The translations under genes and the position numbers were made by a program. From contig NZ_PVZV01000006.1 in the NCBI RefSeq assembly GCF_002995495.1, forward strand, positions 372,001 to 436,000: DNA of 64,000 nt, read 5' to 3'. Source of the DNA: Actinocorallia populi. Lineage in GTDB: Bacteria > Actinomycetota > Actinomycetes > Streptosporangiales > Streptosporangiaceae. Positions 12,672 through 37,824 of this stretch are shown in pieces (within the stretch, counting starts at the first letter, position 1; each line of letters opens with the position of its first letter). The notes under the pieces were generated by a model that worked only from the letters and a program-made list of their open reading frames with translations, searched no databases and was not told the DNA's origin.

Positions 12672-13049
12672 CTAGCTCACGCTCGCCACGGCTTCGACCT
12701 CGAGCAGGACGTCCGGCCGGAACAGCCCGGCGACCTGGACCAGCGAACTCGTCGGCGGACGCTCGGTGTCCACGAACTCATCGCGCACCGCCCGCACGAC
12801 CGGCAGGTGCCCGGTATCGACGACGTACAGGGTGAGCTTGAAGACGTCGCGCCATCGCGCTCCACCTGCTGCCAGCGCTTCGGTCAGGTTCTGGAAGACC
12901 AGCCGCGACTGTTCCTCCCACCCTTGCGGCACGGAGCCGTCGGCGGCGACGGGCACCTGCCCGGACGTCCAGACCAGACGTCCGCCGGCGGGCACCGAGG
13001 CGACCTTGCTGTAGCCGTTGGCCGGTCCGATCAAGGCGATTTCGTCCAT
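12672..13049 (-). CDS. RidA-family (YjgF/YER057c/UK114) protein
   Basis: A 125-residue protein with the RidA layout: SKVASVPAGGRLVWTSGQVPVAADGSVP, a central helix (QSRLVFQNLTEALAAGGARWRDVFKLTLYVVD) and the C-terminal SSLVQVAGLFRPDVLLEVEAVA strand-helix. RidA proteins form trimers and many deaminate reactive enamine/imine intermediates. The catalytic Arg that marks the canonical RidA subfamily (in a 'P-x-R-x-x' context) reads here as ERPPTSSLVQVAGL without it, so this is more likely an Rid2-Rid7-type relative with an undetermined role. The start at MDEIALIG removes an upstream extension (a GTG/ATG at 13115) that reads into transposase-remnant DNA. Confidence 0.85.
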   Translation of the reverse strand: MDEIALIGPANGYSKVASVPAGGRLVWTSGQVPVAADGSVPQGWEEQSRLVFQNLTEALAAGGARWRDVFKLTLYVVDTGHLPVVRAVRDEFVDTERPPTSSLVQVAGLFRPDVLLEVEAVASVS

Positions 13050-13094
13050 GATCCCAAGCCTATGGCCGCCTCTCGGCGCACGGGGCCGTGCCTC

Positions 13095-13188
13095 TTGCCG
13101 AGCCTCCCGCTCCATTTCGGGTCCGACGCATCGAACCCTTGCTCGCTGAACGGGTGCATCACCTGACGCACGTAGCCGTCACCGGCCT
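13095..13188 (-). pseudogene. IS630-like transposase remnant (N-terminal HTH piece)
   Basis: The reverse strand between ridA and dinB reads GYVRQVMHPFSEQGFDASDP followed by KWSGR. This matches the first HTH region of IS630/Tc1-like transposases, where the usual pattern is VRxVIHAFNExGFDALDPKWSGGRP. Only about 30 codons survive, with no DDE catalytic residues and no terminal repeats. It supports this patch having been an insertion and rearrangement site. The remaining ~100 bases up to the dinB stop hold nothing I recognise. Confidence 0.5.
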
Positions 13189-13289
13189 GCGTCAACGACC
13201 TGATCGTGGAGGCAGACCGGGTCTGTGCACCACGCCCACCCCCGGGACCAGGCCGTCGCTGTGTCCGACCGCCTCGAAGTACAACGAGC

Positions 13290-15608: not shown

Positions 15609-15870
15609 GACACTGATTTTTACAAGCGAAAACGGCCCTGTCGCTGATCGCGGAGGGCCTGGTGTCGTTCCGTGCCGGACAGGAATTCCTGACCTGTGCG
15701 CAGCCGAAATATGCCTAAGTTAGACATAGGTCTCAAATGGTTCAATCGGCACAAAGGTATAAAGCAAATCCCTGTTTCCGTGCCTTCGCCCGCGCGACGG
15801 GAGGCCCCCGGCTCGGTCGGGCACCGGATCCCGCCGAGCCGCCGCCAAAATCTCATACCAGGTTCAAAAT

Positions 15871-15883
15871 CAGACCGGGTCTG
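15871..15883. promoter_or_regulatory. Probable TetR operator upstream of the TetR/GH-A-like pair
   Basis: CAGACCGGGTCTG is a perfect dyad around a central base, 14 bases before the TetR start, in an AT-richer promoter region. Self-control of the following operon is inferred. Confidence 0.5.
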
Positions 15884-15897
15884 GTTATAGTCCGGGT

Positions 15898-16506
15898 ATG
15901 ACAGGACTTCGTGAGCGTAAGAAGGAGCAGACGCGGCGGCGGATCGCCGCGGTGGCGTTGAGGCTGTTCGCCGAGCGCGGGTTCGACGGGGTGTCGGTCA
16001 ACGAGATCGCCGCGGCGGCCGAGGTGTCCAAGGCCACCTTCTTCGCGTACTTCCCCGGCAAGGAGTCGCTCGTGCTCCAGGGCGTGGGGGAGGAGGACAT
16101 GGCCGGGATCGTCGCGCGGCGGTCGCCGGAGCAGTCGCCTCTGCAGGCGTTGCGCGCCCACTACCGGGCGTTCGCCGCGGGGCCGATGGCGGAGGAGGAC
16201 TGGGGCGAGGTGACCGCCCGGATGAGAGTGGTCTTCGACAGCCCCGCGCTCAGCGGAGCCGCCAACGCCCTGCTCTACCGACAGCGCCAGGCGCTGGCAC
16301 GGGTGCTGGCCGAAGAGTACGGGCAGGCGGCGGCCGTGCTGGCGGCGGCCCAGATCGCCGCCACCGTGCTCACCCTCCAGGAGTCGTTCTTCCACCTCCT
16401 CGTCGGCGGTACTCCACCCCGAGAGGCCGCCCAGGCCATGGCCCGCGACACCGAACTCGCCTTCGACCTGCTGGAACACGGCATCACCCACGCGAAGGGG
16501 AAATGA
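15898..16506 (+). CDS. TetR-family transcriptional regulator paired with the GH-A-like gene
   Basis: A 202-residue regulator with HTH EQTRRRIAAVALRLFAERGF, then DGVSVNEIAAAAEVSKATFFAYFPGKE, where the FAYFPGKE segment is the usual HTH exit motif, followed by a helical sensor domain ending MARDTELAFDLLEHGI. Its stop is separated by one base from the ATG of the next gene (TGA-C-ATG), so the two are translationally coupled. The dyad just upstream is its likely autoregulatory site. The arrangement recalls the second TetR/GH-A-like pair at 33.5-35.3 kb, although there the genes are divergent. Confidence 0.92.
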   Translation: MTGLRERKKEQTRRRIAAVALRLFAERGFDGVSVNEIAAAAEVSKATFFAYFPGKESLVLQGVGEEDMAGIVARRSPEQSPLQALRAHYRAFAAGPMAEEDWGEVTARMRVVFDSPALSGAANALLYRQRQALARVLAEEYGQAAAVLAAAQIAATVLTLQESFFHLLVGGTPPREAAQAMARDTELAFDLLEHGITHAKGK

Positions 16507-16507
16507 C

Positions 16508-17446
16508 ATGCGCGCACGGGGCATCAACTACGACACGGGCTTCCTCCCGGGCGACGGGATCTCCCGCAAGGTCTTCACCCCCGAAGCGGTCCGGCACGAC
16601 ATGGAAGTGATTTCCGGTGCCCTGCGCTGCGACGCCGTGCGCGTCTCCGGCCGCGACCCCGAACGGCTGGGCACCGCCGCCCGGTGCGCCGCCGACGCCG
16701 GGCTCGAAGTCTGGTTCGCCCCCTTCCCCGTTGACCTCCCCTCCACCGAACTGCTCCCTTTCCTGGCCGACTGCGCCCGGCGAGCCGAGACCCTGCGCCT
16801 GACAGGGGCCGAGGTGGTGTTCGTGACCGGCTGCGAGATCAGCGCCTTCTGCGGCGGTTTCCTGCCGGGAGACACCTACGGCGACCGCCTGCACGCCATG
16901 GCGACCGCCGACATGGCGTGGTGGACGTCCCTCGGCCCGGTCCGGGAACGCCTCAACGCCTTCCTCGCCCGAGCCGCCGAGACGGTCCGCGCCCACTTCG
17001 GCGGCCGCATCACCTACGCCTCAGGCCCCTGGGAGTCCGTCGACTGGCGGCCGTTCGACATCGTCGGCATCGACGCCTACCGGGCCGCATACAACGCCGA
17101 CACCTTCCGTTCGGAGCTGCGCGGGCACCTCGCGCACGGCAAACCCGTCGCGGTGACCGAGTACGGGACCTGCGCCTACCGGGGCGCGGGCGACCGCGGG
17201 GGCTCGGCATGGCAGGTGCCGCAAGACGCGGTACCCGACGAGGACGAGCAGGTGCGCTACCTGACCGAACTGCTGGACGTCTTCGAAGAGGAGGGTGTGG
17301 ACACCGCGCTCTGGTTCACCTTCGCGGGCTACGGCAGGCCCGGTGACGAGGACCTCGGTTCCTACGGGGTGGTCCGGATGCTCGACGAGACCCGCTGGGA
17401 ACCGAAGAAGGTCTTCCACGCGATGGCGGCCAGGCACCGGCGCTGA
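16508..17446 (+). CDS. TIM-barrel protein resembling clan GH-A glycoside hydrolases (paralogue 1)
   Basis: A 312-residue protein without signal peptide. Its sequence alternates strands and helices as in a (beta/alpha)8 barrel: MRARGINYDTGF, CDAVRVSGRDPERL, GLEVWFAPFPVD. Two Glu lie where clan GH-A enzymes carry the acid/base and nucleophile: E110 in VVFVTGCEIS and E218 in KPVAVTEYGTCAYRGAGDRGG. The final part (VDTALWFTFAGYGRPGD, then LGSYGVVRMLDETRWEPKKVFHAMA) is typical of the last barrel strands of GH-A-like proteins. It is a clear paralogue of 34238-35281 (about 45-50% by eye). Relatives have sometimes been labelled 'abortive infection protein' in databases; I see nothing here supporting that. 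It could be an intracellular glycosidase. Substrate unknown. Confidence 0.78.
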   Translation: MRARGINYDTGFLPGDGISRKVFTPEAVRHDMEVISGALRCDAVRVSGRDPERLGTAARCAADAGLEVWFAPFPVDLPSTELLPFLADCARRAETLRLTGAEVVFVTGCEISAFCGGFLPGDTYGDRLHAMATADMAWWTSLGPVRERLNAFLARAAETVRAHFGGRITYASGPWESVDWRPFDIVGIDAYRAAYNADTFRSELRGHLAHGKPVAVTEYGTCAYRGAGDRGGSAWQVPQDAVPDEDEQVRYLTELLDVFEEEGVDTALWFTFAGYGRPGDEDLGSYGVVRMLDETRWEPKKVFHAMAARHRR

Positions 17447-33495: not shown

Positions 33496-34119
33496 GCGGG
33501 TGACCGCCCCGGCGGGGGCGGGGCCCCTGCGGCGCACCAGCGGCAGGTACACCTCGTCGACGATCTCGACGAGGACCTCGTCGGGGGCGGTGGGGACGCC
33601 TCGTACGACGAACTCGTTGCGCAGCAGGACGATGGCCACGGTGGCGACGCGCGGATGGAGCGCTTCGGGAGAGGCCTCTCCGCGCGCGACCGCGCGCCCC
33701 AGGACGGTCAGCCATGTGGCGGCCACGGTGTCGGCGGACTGTTCCGGGAACTGGGACAACATCTCCGAGGCGCCCCCCGCCGCGGCTATCAGTTCGCGCA
33801 GGATCCCCCCGAGCGGGGAACTCCAGTGGCGGTTCGCCATACGGAGCAGCTCGAGGGCGTCCTCGCGCAGGACGCCGGTGTCGGGAGGCCGGACCGCGGT
33901 GGTCAGCCGCCGGTAGGCGGCGGCGCCGAGCGCGAGGCGGTCGGGCCAGCGGCGGTATATCGCGTTCTTGTTCGTGCCGGCGCGCCGGGCGACCCGGTCC
34001 ATGGTCAGCCCGGCGTACCCGGATTCGGTGAGCTCCTCGGCCGCGGCGCGCAGGATCGCCTCCTCCAGGGCGGCGCCGCGCCGCCGGGAACCCGGCCGTC
34101 TCGTGGGGTCGTCCGCCAT
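33487..34119 (-). CDS. TetR-family regulator divergent from GH-A-like paralogue 2
   Basis: A 210-residue regulator with an Arg-rich N-terminus (RRPGSRRRGAALEEAILRAA), HTH ESGYAGLTMDRVARRAGTNK, then NAIYRRWPDRLAL, and a helical sensor domain. The start follows GGGAGAGAGG. It is divergently arranged with the GH-A-like gene, and one 27-bp dyad lies between them, 64 bases from this start. It likely represses both genes. It is only distantly related to the TetR at 15898-16506 although both pair with a GH-A-like protein. Confidence 0.93.
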   Translation of the reverse strand: MADDPTRRPGSRRRGAALEEAILRAAAEELTESGYAGLTMDRVARRAGTNKNAIYRRWPDRLALGAAAYRRLTTAVRPPDTGVLREDALELLRMANRHWSSPLGGILRELIAAAGGASEMLSQFPEQSADTVAATWLTVLGRAVARGEASPEALHPRVATVAIVLLRNEFVVRGVPTAPDEVLVEIVDEVYLPLVRRRGPAPAGAVTRSS

Positions 34120-34183: not shown

Positions 34184-34210
34184 AAATAAGGTACGTTACG
34201 TACCTTATTT
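34184..34210. promoter_or_regulatory. 27-bp palindromic operator between TetR and GH-A-like gene
   Basis: Thirteen-base arms (AAATAAGGTACGT and its complement ACGTACCTTATTT) flank a single central T; the dyad is otherwise perfect. It sits 27 bases before the GH-A-like start, where a repressor would block transcription. Confidence 0.85.
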
Positions 34211-34237: not shown

Positions 34238-35281
34238 ATGCGCGCCAAGGGCATCACCTACGACACCGGCTTCGTCGTCGACGGGAGGAACTCCCGCGAG
34301 CGCTTCGACCCGCAGACCGTCGAGCGCGAACTGCGCATCATCCGCGACGACCTGCACTGCACCGCGGTCCGCGTCATCGGCGGCGACCCGGAGCGGATGG
34401 AGCTCGCCGCGTCGTTCGCCGTCGATCTGGGCCTGGAGGTCTGGTTCTCGCCCTATCCGCTCGAACTGACCGCCCGGGAGATGCTGCCGCTGTTCGCCGA
34501 CTGCGCCGAACGGGCGGAGCGGCTCCGGCGGCGGGGCGGCCGGATCGTGTTCGTGACCGGCGCCGAGCTGAGCCTGATGAGCAGGGAGTTCCTGCCCGGG
34601 GACACACTGGCGAAGCGGCTCGAGCCGCTGACCCGGTCGGATCTCCCGCGCGAGCGGATCGCCGGGATCGGCGCGCGGGTCAACGGCTTCCTCGGCGAGG
34701 CCGTCGCCCTCGTCCGCGGACACTTCGCCGGGAAGGTCACCTACGCCGCCGTACCGCTGGACTCTGTCGACTGGACGCCCTTCGACATCGTGTCCATGGA
34801 CCTCTACCGGTCCGCCGAGATCGCCGACCGGTTCACCGAGGGCGTCCGCACCCTCGTCGCGCAGGGGAAACCGGTCGCGATCACCGAGTTCGGGTCCGCC
34901 TGCTTCCGCGGCGCGGGCGACAGGGGAGCCCGCGGCCTGGAGATCGTCGAGTACGCCGCGGGCACCGGCGCGCCGCTGCGCCTGGTCGGGGAGTACGCCC
35001 GCGACGAGGACGGCCAGGCCGCGTACCTGCGTGAACTGCTGGAGGTCTTCGAAACCGAGGGCGTCGACAGCGCCTTCGTGTTCCTCTTCGCGCTCTACGA
35101 CCACCCGCACCGCCCCGGCGGCGACCCCCGCGACGACCTCGACCTGGCGAGCTACGGCATCGTCAAGGTCTTCGAGGACCGCCGCGGGGACACCTACCCC
35201 GACATGCCGTGGGAACCCAAGTCCGCGTTCGCGGCCCTCGCCGAGTTCTACCGGGAGGTGCGTGCGTCCGCCGTTCCCTAG
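34238..35281 (+). CDS. TIM-barrel protein resembling clan GH-A glycoside hydrolases (paralogue 2)
   Basis: A 347-residue paralogue of the 16508 gene with the same landmarks: MRAKGITYDTGFVVDGRNSR, GLEVWFSPYPLEL, first catalytic-type Glu in IVFVTGAELS (E110), and second in KPVAITEFGSACFRGAGDRG (E217). It is longer near the end (FALYDHPHRPGGDPRDDLDLASYG). It has no signal peptide. The conserved RGAGDRG after the second Glu is shared and may mark a family-specific substrate loop. The gene is under the 27-bp operator and its stop overlaps the convergent ABC permease gene by 4 bases. An intracellular glycosidase acting on a cell-derived or imported glycoside is plausible; the substrate is unknown. 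Confidence 0.78.
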   Translation: MRAKGITYDTGFVVDGRNSRERFDPQTVERELRIIRDDLHCTAVRVIGGDPERMELAASFAVDLGLEVWFSPYPLELTAREMLPLFADCAERAERLRRRGGRIVFVTGAELSLMSREFLPGDTLAKRLEPLTRSDLPRERIAGIGARVNGFLGEAVALVRGHFAGKVTYAAVPLDSVDWTPFDIVSMDLYRSAEIADRFTEGVRTLVAQGKPVAITEFGSACFRGAGDRGARGLEIVEYAAGTGAPLRLVGEYARDEDGQAAYLRELLEVFETEGVDSAFVFLFALYDHPHRPGGDPRDDLDLASYGIVKVFEDRRGDTYPDMPWEPKSAFAALAEFYREVRASAVP

Positions 35282-36054
35282 GCGGAGGTCCTGCGGCGGA
35301 ACAGGAACGCCGCGATCGGCGCGCTGAGCAGCACCGTGCCCGCGAGCCAGGCCGCGGTCACGGCTCCGGACGAGCCCATCGGCTGGTCGAGGAGCAGGGA
35401 GCGGAGCGTCTCCACGATCGGCGTGACCGGCTGGTTGTAGGCGAAGTCGCGCAGCACGCCCGGCATGGTCTCGGCCGGCACGATGCCGTCCGACAGGTAC
35501 GGCAGGAAGAGCACGACGAAGCTGAACGCGCCGGCGGCCTGGGACGAATCGACCAGCAGCCCCCAGAGCACCGCCAGCGACGACATCGCCAGGACGTACC
35601 CCGCCACCACGGCCAGTACCAGGATCCAGTCGACGGGCGCGGCGTCCGGCCGGAAACCCAGGAGGATCGCGGCGACCAGGGAGAATCCGCACGCCGCCAC
35701 GTTGCGGACCACCGAGGCGACCACGTGCCCGGCGGGGACCACCCAGCCGCCGACCGGCAGGGTGCGGAAGCGGTCGATCATGCCTCCGGTCATGTCCTCG
35801 GAGATGTTCACCGCGGTCAGCGCGGCGCCGTACCCGCCGGCCATCAGCAGGACGGCGGGCACCACGAAGTCGATGTAGTCCAGCCCGCTGGAGCCGGTGG
35901 TGATCGCCCCGCCGAAGACGTACACGAACAGCACCATGATGATCACGGGCAGGGCCATGTTCACGATGAGGCCGTCGATGAGGCGCGCCTCGCGGCGCAG
36001 GTTGCGGACGACGAGGAGGCGCAGGTCTCCTGCGGAGATGAGGGCGGTGCTCAT
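35278..36054 (-). CDS. ABC-2 type exporter permease (DrrB-like)
   Basis: A 258-residue protein with a cytoplasmic N-terminus (MSTALISAGDLRLLVVRNLRRE), six membrane segments and the ABC-2 loop motif (MTGGMIDRFRTLPVGGWVV). The C-terminal NQPVTPIVETLRSLL segment is typical of DrrB-like drug or lipid exporters. It overlaps the ATPase gene by ATGA and would form a homodimeric channel with it. Its stop overlaps the GH-A-like gene from the other strand by 4 bases. Confidence 0.92.
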   Translation of the reverse strand: MSTALISAGDLRLLVVRNLRREARLIDGLIVNMALPVIIMVLFVYVFGGAITTGSSGLDYIDFVVPAVLLMAGGYGAALTAVNISEDMTGGMIDRFRTLPVGGWVVPAGHVVASVVRNVAACGFSLVAAILLGFRPDAAPVDWILVLAVVAGYVLAMSSLAVLWGLLVDSSQAAGAFSFVVLFLPYLSDGIVPAETMPGVLRDFAYNQPVTPIVETLRSLLLDQPMGSSGAVTAAWLAGTVLLSAPIAAFLFRRRTSA

Positions 36055-37019
36055 GCCGCGGCCTCCGTGAACTCGAAGAAGACGTCGTCGAGGGTGGGGG
36101 TGCGCAGCGCCACGTGCTCGACGGCGATGTCCGCGCGGTGCAGCAGGTCCAGCGTGTGGCGCAGGTGGTCGGGGCCCTGGACGGCCAGCGTGACCTCGCG
36201 CGCCCCCGTGTCCGGGGGTGCTCCGGCCGCGCCGCCGGCCGCCGTCTCGCCGAGCGCGGACCTGGCGCGCGATACGTCCTCGGGCCGGGCCAGGCGCAGG
36301 ACCAGGCGTTCGGTGCCGACCTGGCGCTTCAGGGCGGCGGGGGAGTCGTCGGCCACGACGCGGCCGCCGTTGATGACCACGACGCGGTCGGCGAGCTGGT
36401 CGGCCTCCTCCAGGTACTGCGTGGTGAGCAGGATGGTGGTGCCGGAGGCCAGCAGTTCGCGGATCACCGACCACAGCTCGGCCCTGCTGCGCGGGTCGAG
36501 CCCGGTCGTGGGCTCGTCGAGGAAGAGGATCCGCGGCTGCGACACCATGCTCGCCGCCAGGTCGAGCCGCCGCCGCATCCCGCCGGAGTAGGCCGCGACC
36601 CGCCGGTTCGCGGCCGCGGCCAGGTCGAAGCGCTCCAGGAGCTCCTGCGCCCGCTGCCGCGCCTGCCGCCGGCCCAGGTGGTACAGGCCCGCGAACAGCT
36701 CCAGGTTCTCCCGCCCCGTGAGCAGATCGTCCACCGTGGCCTGCTGGGAGGTCAGGCCGATCACCCGGCGCACTGCCGCGCCCTCGCGCGTGACGTCGTG
36801 CCCGCCCACCGCGGCGGTGCCGCCGTCGGGGGCGAGCAGCGTGGTCAGGATGCGCACCGTGGTGGTCTTGCCCGAGCCGTTGGGGCCGAGCAGGGCCAGC
36901 AGCGAGCCGGTGGGCACGGTCAGGTCGATCCCGGCCAGCACCCGGGTCGTGCCGAAGGACTTCGTCAGTCCCCGGGCGTGAACGCCATCTGTGAATGTCG
37001 TACTGTGTATGAGCGTCAT
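36051..37019 (-). CDS. DrrA-like ABC exporter ATP-binding protein
   Basis: A 322-residue ATPase with Walker A GPNGSGKTTTVR, a Q loop in GLTSQQATVDDLLTG, signature YSGGMRRRLDLAASM and Walker B ILFLDEPTTGLD. The DrrA-type C-terminal extension ends TPTLDDVFFEFTEAAA. With the permease it exports a hydrophobic drug or lipid, as DrrAB does for daunorubicin. The ATG lies inside a short dyad, and a TAAAACT box stands just upstream, suggesting a leaderless transcript under the divergent TetR. An alternative upstream ATG at 37037 (MHYFKTMTL) adds six residues. Confidence 0.92.
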   Translation of the reverse strand: MTLIHSTTFTDGVHARGLTKSFGTTRVLAGIDLTVPTGSLLALLGPNGSGKTTTVRILTTLLAPDGGTAAVGGHDVTREGAAVRRVIGLTSQQATVDDLLTGRENLELFAGLYHLGRRQARQRAQELLERFDLAAAANRRVAAYSGGMRRRLDLAASMVSQPRILFLDEPTTGLDPRSRAELWSVIRELLASGTTILLTTQYLEEADQLADRVVVINGGRVVADDSPAALKRQVGTERLVLRLARPEDVSRARSALGETAAGGAAGAPPDTGAREVTLAVQGPDHLRHTLDLLHRADIAVEHVALRTPTLDDVFFEFTEAAA

Positions 37020-37020
37020 A
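37008..37020. promoter_or_regulatory. Short dyad over the DrrA-like start codon
   Basis: TATGA-GCG-TCATA lies across the first codons of the ATPase gene, next to TTTTAAA, in the 49-base gap shared with the divergent TetR gene. It is a candidate TetR operator but only 13 bases long. Confidence 0.4.
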
Positions 37021-37068
37021 GTTTTAAAGTAGTGCACAATCCTGGGAGCCGGTCAAGGAGGAATCTCG

Positions 37069-37824
37069 ATGGCGCAGGAGCGGCGGTTGCCGTCCGTGTT
37101 GGAGCGCATGTGGGGGCGCGAGCCGGTGACGCGCCGGGGGCCGCGGCCGCGGCTGGACCTGGCCGCGATCACCGCCGCCGCCATCGAGATCGCCGACGCC
37201 GAGGGCCTGGCCGGTGTCTCCATGGCGGCCGTCGCCTCACGGGTCGGGGTGGCGGCGACGGCGCTCTACCGGTACGTGGACAGCAAGGAGGACCTGCTCA
37301 CCGCCATGGCCGACGGCGTCGCCCCGCCGCCGCCCGAGCCGGCGGGCATGCACTGGCGCGACTACCTCGCCCTGTGGACCCGGACCCACCGCGACCTCGT
37401 GCTGGAGCACCCGTGGGTGCTGTCCGTCGGCGCGTTCGTCCCGCCGCTGGGCCCGCGGAGGCTGCTGTGGCTCGACCGCGTGCTGGCCTCCCTCGACGGC
37501 ACGGGGCTCGACGACGGCGAGAAGATCAACGTGGCCACCACCCTGACCGGGTACGCGCTCACCGACGCCGCGATCATCCACAGCGCCAGGAGCGGTGACC
37601 CGCAGATGGAGGACGCGGCGATCACCGGAGCCGCCGACTACGGCGAGGTGCTCGCCGGCCTGCTCGACCCCGAGGCCTACCCGGCCCTGTCGGCCGCGAT
37701 GCGCTCGGGCGCCATGCGCGGCGCCGAAGGCTGGGTGGACGACGCCGACTTCGTCTTCGGCCTCGACCTGCTGCTCGACGGCGTCGAGGCCCTGATCAGG
37801 CGAAGGGCGCCGGGCCCGGCCTAG
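37069..37824 (+). CDS. TetR-family regulator (TetR_C type) divergent from the DrrAB-like exporter
   Basis: A 251-residue regulator with HTH LDLAAITAAAIEIADAEGLA, then GVSMAAVASRVGVAATALYRYVDSKEDLL, and a TetR_C-like helical domain (WRDYLALWTRTHRDLVLEHPWV). It is preceded by AAGGAGGAA, a strong ribosome site. The N-terminal extension (LPSVLERMWGREPVTRRGPRPRLD) is typical of regulators beside DrrAB-type pumps. It probably represses the divergent exporter and is released by the exported compound. Confidence 0.93.
   Translation: MAQERRLPSVLERMWGREPVTRRGPRPRLDLAAITAAAIEIADAEGLAGVSMAAVASRVGVAATALYRYVDSKEDLLTAMADGVAPPPPEPAGMHWRDYLALWTRTHRDLVLEHPWVLSVGAFVPPLGPRRLLWLDRVLASLDGTGLDDGEKINVATTLTGYALTDAAIIHSARSGDPQMEDAAITGAADYGEVLAGLLDPEAYPALSAAMRSGAMRGAEGWVDDADFVFGLDLLLDGVEALIRRRAPGPA

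Follow-up and report, generated by a model that had tools for sequence, protein, structure and literature searches.

A TetR-barrel gene pair in Actinocorallia populi, probably an inducible antibiotic-resistance cassette

In Actinocorallia populi, a gene for a TetR-family repressor and a gene for a barrel-fold protein lie on the same strand and one base apart, which raises the question of what the barrel protein acts on and what its neighbor might sense. We addressed this question in a 64,000-nucleotide stretch of the genome (hereafter the window), for which a first-pass annotation had proposed an intracellular system that senses and cleaves a glycoside. Re-reading of the open reading frames (ORFs) confirmed both genes and the single base between them. 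The regulator (P0003, 202 aa; 15898-16506, + strand) scores 62.5 bits against Pfam TetR_N, for which the cut-off is 24, and thus carries the helix-turn-helix domain of the TetR family, while its C-terminal domain is of the TetR_C_14 type (29.4 bits, above the Pfam cut-off). An identity as MftR, the mycofactocin regulator, was rejected, the score against NCBIfam TIGR03968 (79.8 bits) being far below the equivalog cut-off of 224.9. At least 150 TetR domains are encoded in the same genome.

Relatives, fold and catalytic residues of the barrel protein

The sole strong solved relative returned by sequence for the barrel protein (312 aa; 16508-17446, + strand) is AcvX from Actinomadura viridis (PDB 7y4h; E = 3.2e-82, residues 1-311), with 45-51% identity over the full length (51% in structural alignment). 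The PDB title credits AcvX with deglycosylation activity on lobophorins, and its activity is taken here from that title and from a 2023 paper in Nature Chemical Biology, which reportedly describes KijX as a widespread lobophorin glycosidase, together with the AcvX structure; AcvX is presumably a lobophorin glycosidase of the KijX type. The earlier description of the barrel as uncharacterized and devoid of a known substrate is hard to maintain next to such a relative; judged from its sequence, the protein is no orphan and belongs with a structurally solved family of antibiotic-deglycosylating enzymes.

An AlphaFold2 model of the barrel protein, computed from an alignment of 79 family members (mean pLDDT 97.1, pTM 0.94), is a (beta/alpha)8 barrel in which E110 is placed just past strand 4 and E218 within strand 7. 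The predicted strands 103-109 and 214-219 bear the putative catalytic glutamates at their ends, as in the 4/7 barrels of clan GH-A. In a structure search (Foldseek, VIA-align 2), 7y4h was the top match (Z 44.7, rmsd 1.6, 302 residues aligned), followed by GH113 mannanases (Z about 25), which the family profile also reached in the sequence search (best E 6.2e-06). These beta-1,4-mannanases (AaManA 4cd6, 5ylh, BaMan113A) have the same barrel fold and the same GCE and nucleophile Glu positions as the window barrel, in line with the GH-A-like fold first proposed for it, but are only 17-20% identical to it over aligned residues. Membership of GH113 itself was rejected, with a Pfam GH113 score of 18.6 bits against a curated cut-off of 27. 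The window barrel reaches no Pfam or NCBIfam cut-off, and Pfam GH113 matches at E up to 0.1 were obtained for 48 of 79 relatives (best 4.9e-06). When aligned through the family profile to the mannanase 4cd6, E110 corresponds to residue 151, in a weak and non-significant stretch, and E218 to residue 231, which we take to be the acid/base and the nucleophile of that enzyme, respectively.

Conservation of the glutamate pair, which the first-pass annotation had emphasized, is borne out by 157 near-full-length homologues: E110 is kept in all of them and E218 in 155, and AcvX has both. The two exceptions (L115 and L156) concern E218 only, where they carry Gly together with an altered Tyr191. They are sister homologues located beside divergent TetR genes (L115:2495-3526 and L156:1498-2520, both - strand) and possibly represent non-catalytic versions. 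Inspection of the N terminus of the window barrel revealed no hydrophobic leader, strand 1 beginning at residue 3, which supports the earlier view that a signal peptide is absent. Homology and the model point to an AcvX-like cytosolic glycosidase, with E110 and E218 in the places of the GH113 catalytic pair.

AcvX and the window barrel are alike in full-length homology, fold, Glu pair and an aligned, leaderless N terminus. They differ in that the window barrel falls into a separate clade (clade A, defined below), is shorter in three loop regions of the alignment and has a TetR gene upstream on the same strand. As about half of the residues differ and three loops are shorter, the substrate of the window barrel may not be that of AcvX, and it is quite possible, from the sequence comparison, that it acts on a related but different compound.

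AcvX rather resembles the barrel of a second module in the window, which is of the type with a divergent TetR. The second barrel (P0002, 347 aa; 34238-35281, + strand) is a paralogous glycosidase, 17.7 kb from the first and 49% identical to it, and a closer relative of AcvX (554 bits to 7y4h, residues 1-339). Its TetR gene (P0004; 33487-34119, - strand, with the start codon at 34119 being our choice) encodes a TetR_C_11-type protein, and a 27-bp dyad, AAATAAGGTACGTTACGTACCTTATTT, lies between the two genes at 34184-34210. The module had been read as independent of the first; it does exist and has a dyad of its own, but its enzyme is a paralogue and its TetR is divergent and of a different type. 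By ORF reading, an ABC exporter-like pair (- strand) and a further TetR-like ORF (37069) adjoin it at 35278-37824, and its surroundings suggest a drug-resistance neighborhood. A third, more distant barrel copy (37% identity) lies in another part of the genome, and 3.9 kb around it yielded no TetR.

Predicted operator and promoter

Upstream of the TetR gene, a half-site matrix built from 15 relatives (half-site consensus AAAAACCATACCGGGTT; calling threshold 20 bits) identified a 42-bp imperfect dyad of 17-8-17 architecture, AAATCTCATACCAGGTT-caaaatca-GACCGGGTCTGGTTATA, at 15848-15889 (+ strand). With 36.4 bits, it is the only site in the window at which both half-sites score positive. All 61 clade-A loci with an adjacent TetR carry a site above 20 bits, including the 46 outside the matrix training set. 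Among the 34 clade-A loci where no TetR was called, two (L007 and L049) have such a site, as does one (L149) of the 54 loci outside clade A; shuffling of the 149 loci left none. This dyad is, on the evidence of sequence, the probable operator of the adjacent TetR. Its 28-bp core has one mismatch-free match in the A. populi genome, which fits a local autorepressor, and a wider regulon was left unsupported by this single exact match; the five further matches all have 3 mismatches, one of them overlapping the operator, and a reversed control gave one match.

A promoter-like element (TTCAAA-17-TATAGT; 9 of 12 consensus matches) lies inside the operator at 15863-15891 (+ strand), and two such sites were found in the stretch searched, compared with 0.1 expected from shuffles. 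Only 6 nt separate its -10 hexamer from the ATG at 15898, hence the TetR message is probably leaderless.

The perfect dyad that had first drawn attention to this region, CAGACC-G-GGTCTG (CAGACCGGGTCTG), is present at 15871-15883 (+ strand), but it is an off-centre piece of the 42-bp operator, overlapping only the spacer and the right half-site. It occurs twice in the window (mean 0.00 over 100 window shuffles) and at two places in the 8.25-Mb genome, a count close to chance, since the control pattern read backwards matches as rarely (one place per strand). We rejected this 13-bp sequence as the entire operator because relatives conserve the 42-bp dyad instead. Its other occurrence, at 13213-13225, falls between ORFs, upstream of a small one (12672-13115, - strand) and 2.7 kb from the operator, and has no second half-site.

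Association with TetR, transfer as a unit and loss of the switch

To what extent the barrel is accompanied by a regulator was assessed in a non-random sample of 160 loci (161 barrel ORF rows), comprising the three copies of A. populi, the best 80 of 141, 29 and 8 loci from genome surveys, and 40 hand-picked stretches. Four partial rows (L075, both L076 rows and L160) and eight identical copies were dropped, leaving 149. An upstream TetR within 300 nt is present in 95 of these, on the same strand in 69 and divergent in 26, and absent from 54. Clade A, to which the window barrel belongs, was defined by a profile score of at least 450 bits, and the tree used here is a quick one. A same-strand TetR is found in 61 of its 95 members, and in 38 of these 61 pairs the two genes are 2 or 4 nt apart by the measure of our script, which gives 4 for the window pair. 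The association that the first-pass annotation had inferred from two modules thus holds for most of clade A and for the sample overall, the remainder being without a nearby TetR. In the clade of the second module, the TetR is divergent in 24 of 27 loci, on the same strand in one and missing from two, whereas in the most distant clade a same-strand TetR, belonging to a third BLAST group, accompanies the barrel at 7 of 18 loci. These arrangements cluster on the tree (21 changes versus a shuffled mean of 63.5), and the 61 clade-A pairs largely represent one inherited association rather than 61 independent events. When linked by BLAST at 100 bits, the clade-B TetRs form one group of 25, in which Pfam nevertheless shows both TetR_C_11 and TetR_C_14, so that any count of regulator types should be taken as approximate.

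The most widely shared flanking gene is TetR, which recurs at 43 loci in at least six genera (including Streptomyces, Actinomadura, Actinocrispum, Nocardia, Micromonospora, Amycolatopsis and Nonomuraea); the next gene reaches 22 loci. Other recurring neighbors (22 loci at most) are confined almost entirely to Nonomuraea and relatives such as Microtetraspora, or to one Streptomyces group, with few members outside.

Operator, TetR and barrel move together between families. A block of 1749 bp, from shortly before the operator to just past the barrel gene, is 91.4% identical between Streptomyces sp. TP-A0874 and Actinomadura violacea, and no further similarity was detected between the two loci in about 6.9 kb (blastn, E 1e-10). 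In 8 of 11 compared pairs, including the window against three relatives, similarity forms a single block that begins at or within the operator and ends with the barrel; the remaining three pairs involve TetR-less loci.

The TetR-less loci retain traces of the regulator. At 14 of the 34 clade-A loci in which no TetR was called, a remnant of the TetR 3' end is recognizable in the nucleotide sequence directly before the barrel, a remnant being scored when the local score was more than 2 above the highest obtained from 60 mononucleotide shuffles. At one of these (L025) a large part of TetR is still present but with its frame broken, perhaps through a sequencing error. Three loci (L033, L034 and L049) have TetR-like sequence farther upstream, and Streptomyces ardesiacus (L007) keeps the operator and both the start and the end of TetR, with about 470 bp missing in between. 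The barrel is an open frame of 312-342 codons in all 34. The median dN/dS was 0.20 in TetR-less Streptomyces barrels versus 0.28 in relatives with TetR (66 of 78 pairs, 13 barrels per group), with codons compared by position, unaligned, and 12 of 78 pairs per group lost mostly or wholly to a 30% difference limit. From these values, selection on the enzyme seems to persist after TetR has been lost. With no TetR called at 34 of 95 clade-A loci, induction would seem dispensable.

Candidate functions and distribution

We consider it fairly probable that the pair is a mobile, TetR-repressed and inducible resistance cassette whose glycosidase inactivates a glycosylated antibiotic, most likely a lobophorin-like spirotetronate. 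This view builds on computed evidence of homology and fold, the conserved Glu pair, the co-occurrence of operator and TetR, and joint transfer, whereas repression, inducer, catalysis and substrate are deduced. In the mechanism that we infer, TetR would bind the 42-bp dyad that covers the promoter of its own, probably leaderless message and keep both genes off until a glycosylated antibiotic, or a derivative of it, enters the cell and releases TetR from the operator. The barrel, probably translated from the TetR message one base past the TetR stop codon, would work as an AcvX-like retaining glycosidase, with E110 as acid/base and E218 as nucleophile, and would cut the sugar chain of the antibiotic in the cytosol, thereby inactivating it.

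A catabolic or housekeeping glycosidase that cleaves a plant or microbial glycoside for carbon after the glycoside has been sensed by TetR, a reading in line with the glycoside sensing and cleavage first offered for this locus, accounts for the GH113-like fold and catalytic pair, the cytosolic location and the presence of a regulator. We regard it as unlikely, because the nearest characterized relative acts on an antibiotic, because presence is patchy and the two-gene unit is transferred without a transporter, and because TetR alone recurs so widely as a neighbor. Antibiotic inactivation is the likelier role, since the title of the AcvX entry names lobophorins as the compounds deglycosylated.

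Of the 150 family genomes sampled, 78 have a homologue of the barrel, of any clade, compared with 8 of 296 genomes across the phylum, A. populi being counted in both; matches were also found in 18 of 72,556 plasmid records and in none of 50,697 phages. In three genomes (G065, G096 and G122) the matches lie in adjacent pieces that resemble broken copies or assembly errors. FkbH, a rough marker of tetronate pathways only, was found in 32 of the 78 family genomes with a barrel and in 24 of the 72 without (p 0.40), that is, with no association; the two surveys were taken to cover the same 150 genomes since their handles agree. FkbH matches were accepted at E up to 0.001, so that two of the 56 genomes with a match fall under the family cut-off, and A. 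populi has no match. Independence of the barrel from FkbH and the lack of FkbH in the host fit a defence against the compounds of others over self-resistance.

That the enzyme serves instead as self-resistance or as a pathway enzyme for the host's own glycosylated product, within a biosynthetic cluster, is on these grounds quite improbable, and the ORF after the barrel, which we take from its sequence to be DNA-ligase-like, also speaks against it. In its favor, kijX is reported from a lobophorin pathway context, and the barrel lies 46 kb from FkbH in one of the 32 sampled genomes with both. This genome (G126) holds the only same-contig pair of a clade-A cassette and FkbH within 50 kb, as judged by a script for 22 of the 32 genomes and from the matches themselves for the other 10, which place the two genes on different contigs; many assemblies are drafts, in which distances can be read only within a contig. 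On contig C94 of G126, barrel L089 lies at 156597 and FkbH at 202524, and this region could be a producer cluster.

It is highly improbable that the barrel is a degenerate binding or signaling protein, for example a co-sensor of TetR, that has lost catalysis: the two homologues with Gly in place of E218 indicate that non-catalytic versions may exist, but both glutamates are intact in the window protein, E218 is near-invariant, and the barrel remains under purifying selection at the many loci that lost TetR. A role in abortive infection or phage defence was rejected, as it goes back to one database label ('Abortive infection protein', on the 30.5% identical homologue WP_185303152.1 of Streptomyces finlayi) and the phage collection gave no match.

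At several loci the barrel has enzymes for neighbors. FAD-binding monooxygenase-type genes adjoin the TetR-less L038, L042 and L043, and also L011; the same holds for two Streptomyces plasmid copies (H1 and H6; L167 and L168) of the 18 plasmid matches. Next to L038, L042, L043 and the two plasmid copies these are flavin aromatic-ring hydroxylases, and at none of the six loci is a TetR called or listed. The FAD-binding monooxygenase superfamily includes antibiotic monooxygenases, and these six loci are possibly multi-enzyme drug-inactivation islands. The other seven upstream ORFs scanned comprise a CoA-transferase, an enolase, a P450, a radical SAM protein, an inositol-phosphate synthase and two without a match.

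As an antibiotic-inactivating cassette, the pair is probably an inducible resistance device of a largely known kind. Antibiotic-responsive TetR repressors beside resistance genes are familiar from TetR/tetA, SimR and the like, and the window TetR resembles them in that it seems to repress its own gene from a dyad covering the promoter and adjoins one candidate resistance gene; it differs in that its target is a hydrolase and not an efflux pump, and in that the dyad is long (42 bp, 17-8-17). To our knowledge, resistance by removal of sugar from a glycosylated polyketide has rarely been described. In open-license literature we found no description of a cassette of operator, TetR and enzyme, of its transfer as a unit or of the loss of its switch, and a term search of PMC10143065 gave no occurrence of glycosidase, hydrolase or resistance.

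It is tempting to speculate, and we do so tentatively, that an operator, a dedicated TetR and a GH113-like glycosidase together constitute a mobile and widespread actinobacterial system for inducible antibiotic deglycosylation, in which at least three enzyme lineages are each paired with a different TetR type, from which Streptomyces lost the switch more than once while keeping the enzyme, and whose TetR senses intact glycosylated antibiotics of the spirotetronate type. If this is true, the TetR would be a ready-made biosensor for the discovery of glycosylated antibiotics. With a homologue in more than half of the family genomes sampled and a unit that is mobile between families, such cassettes could make up a sizeable environmental reservoir of resistance.
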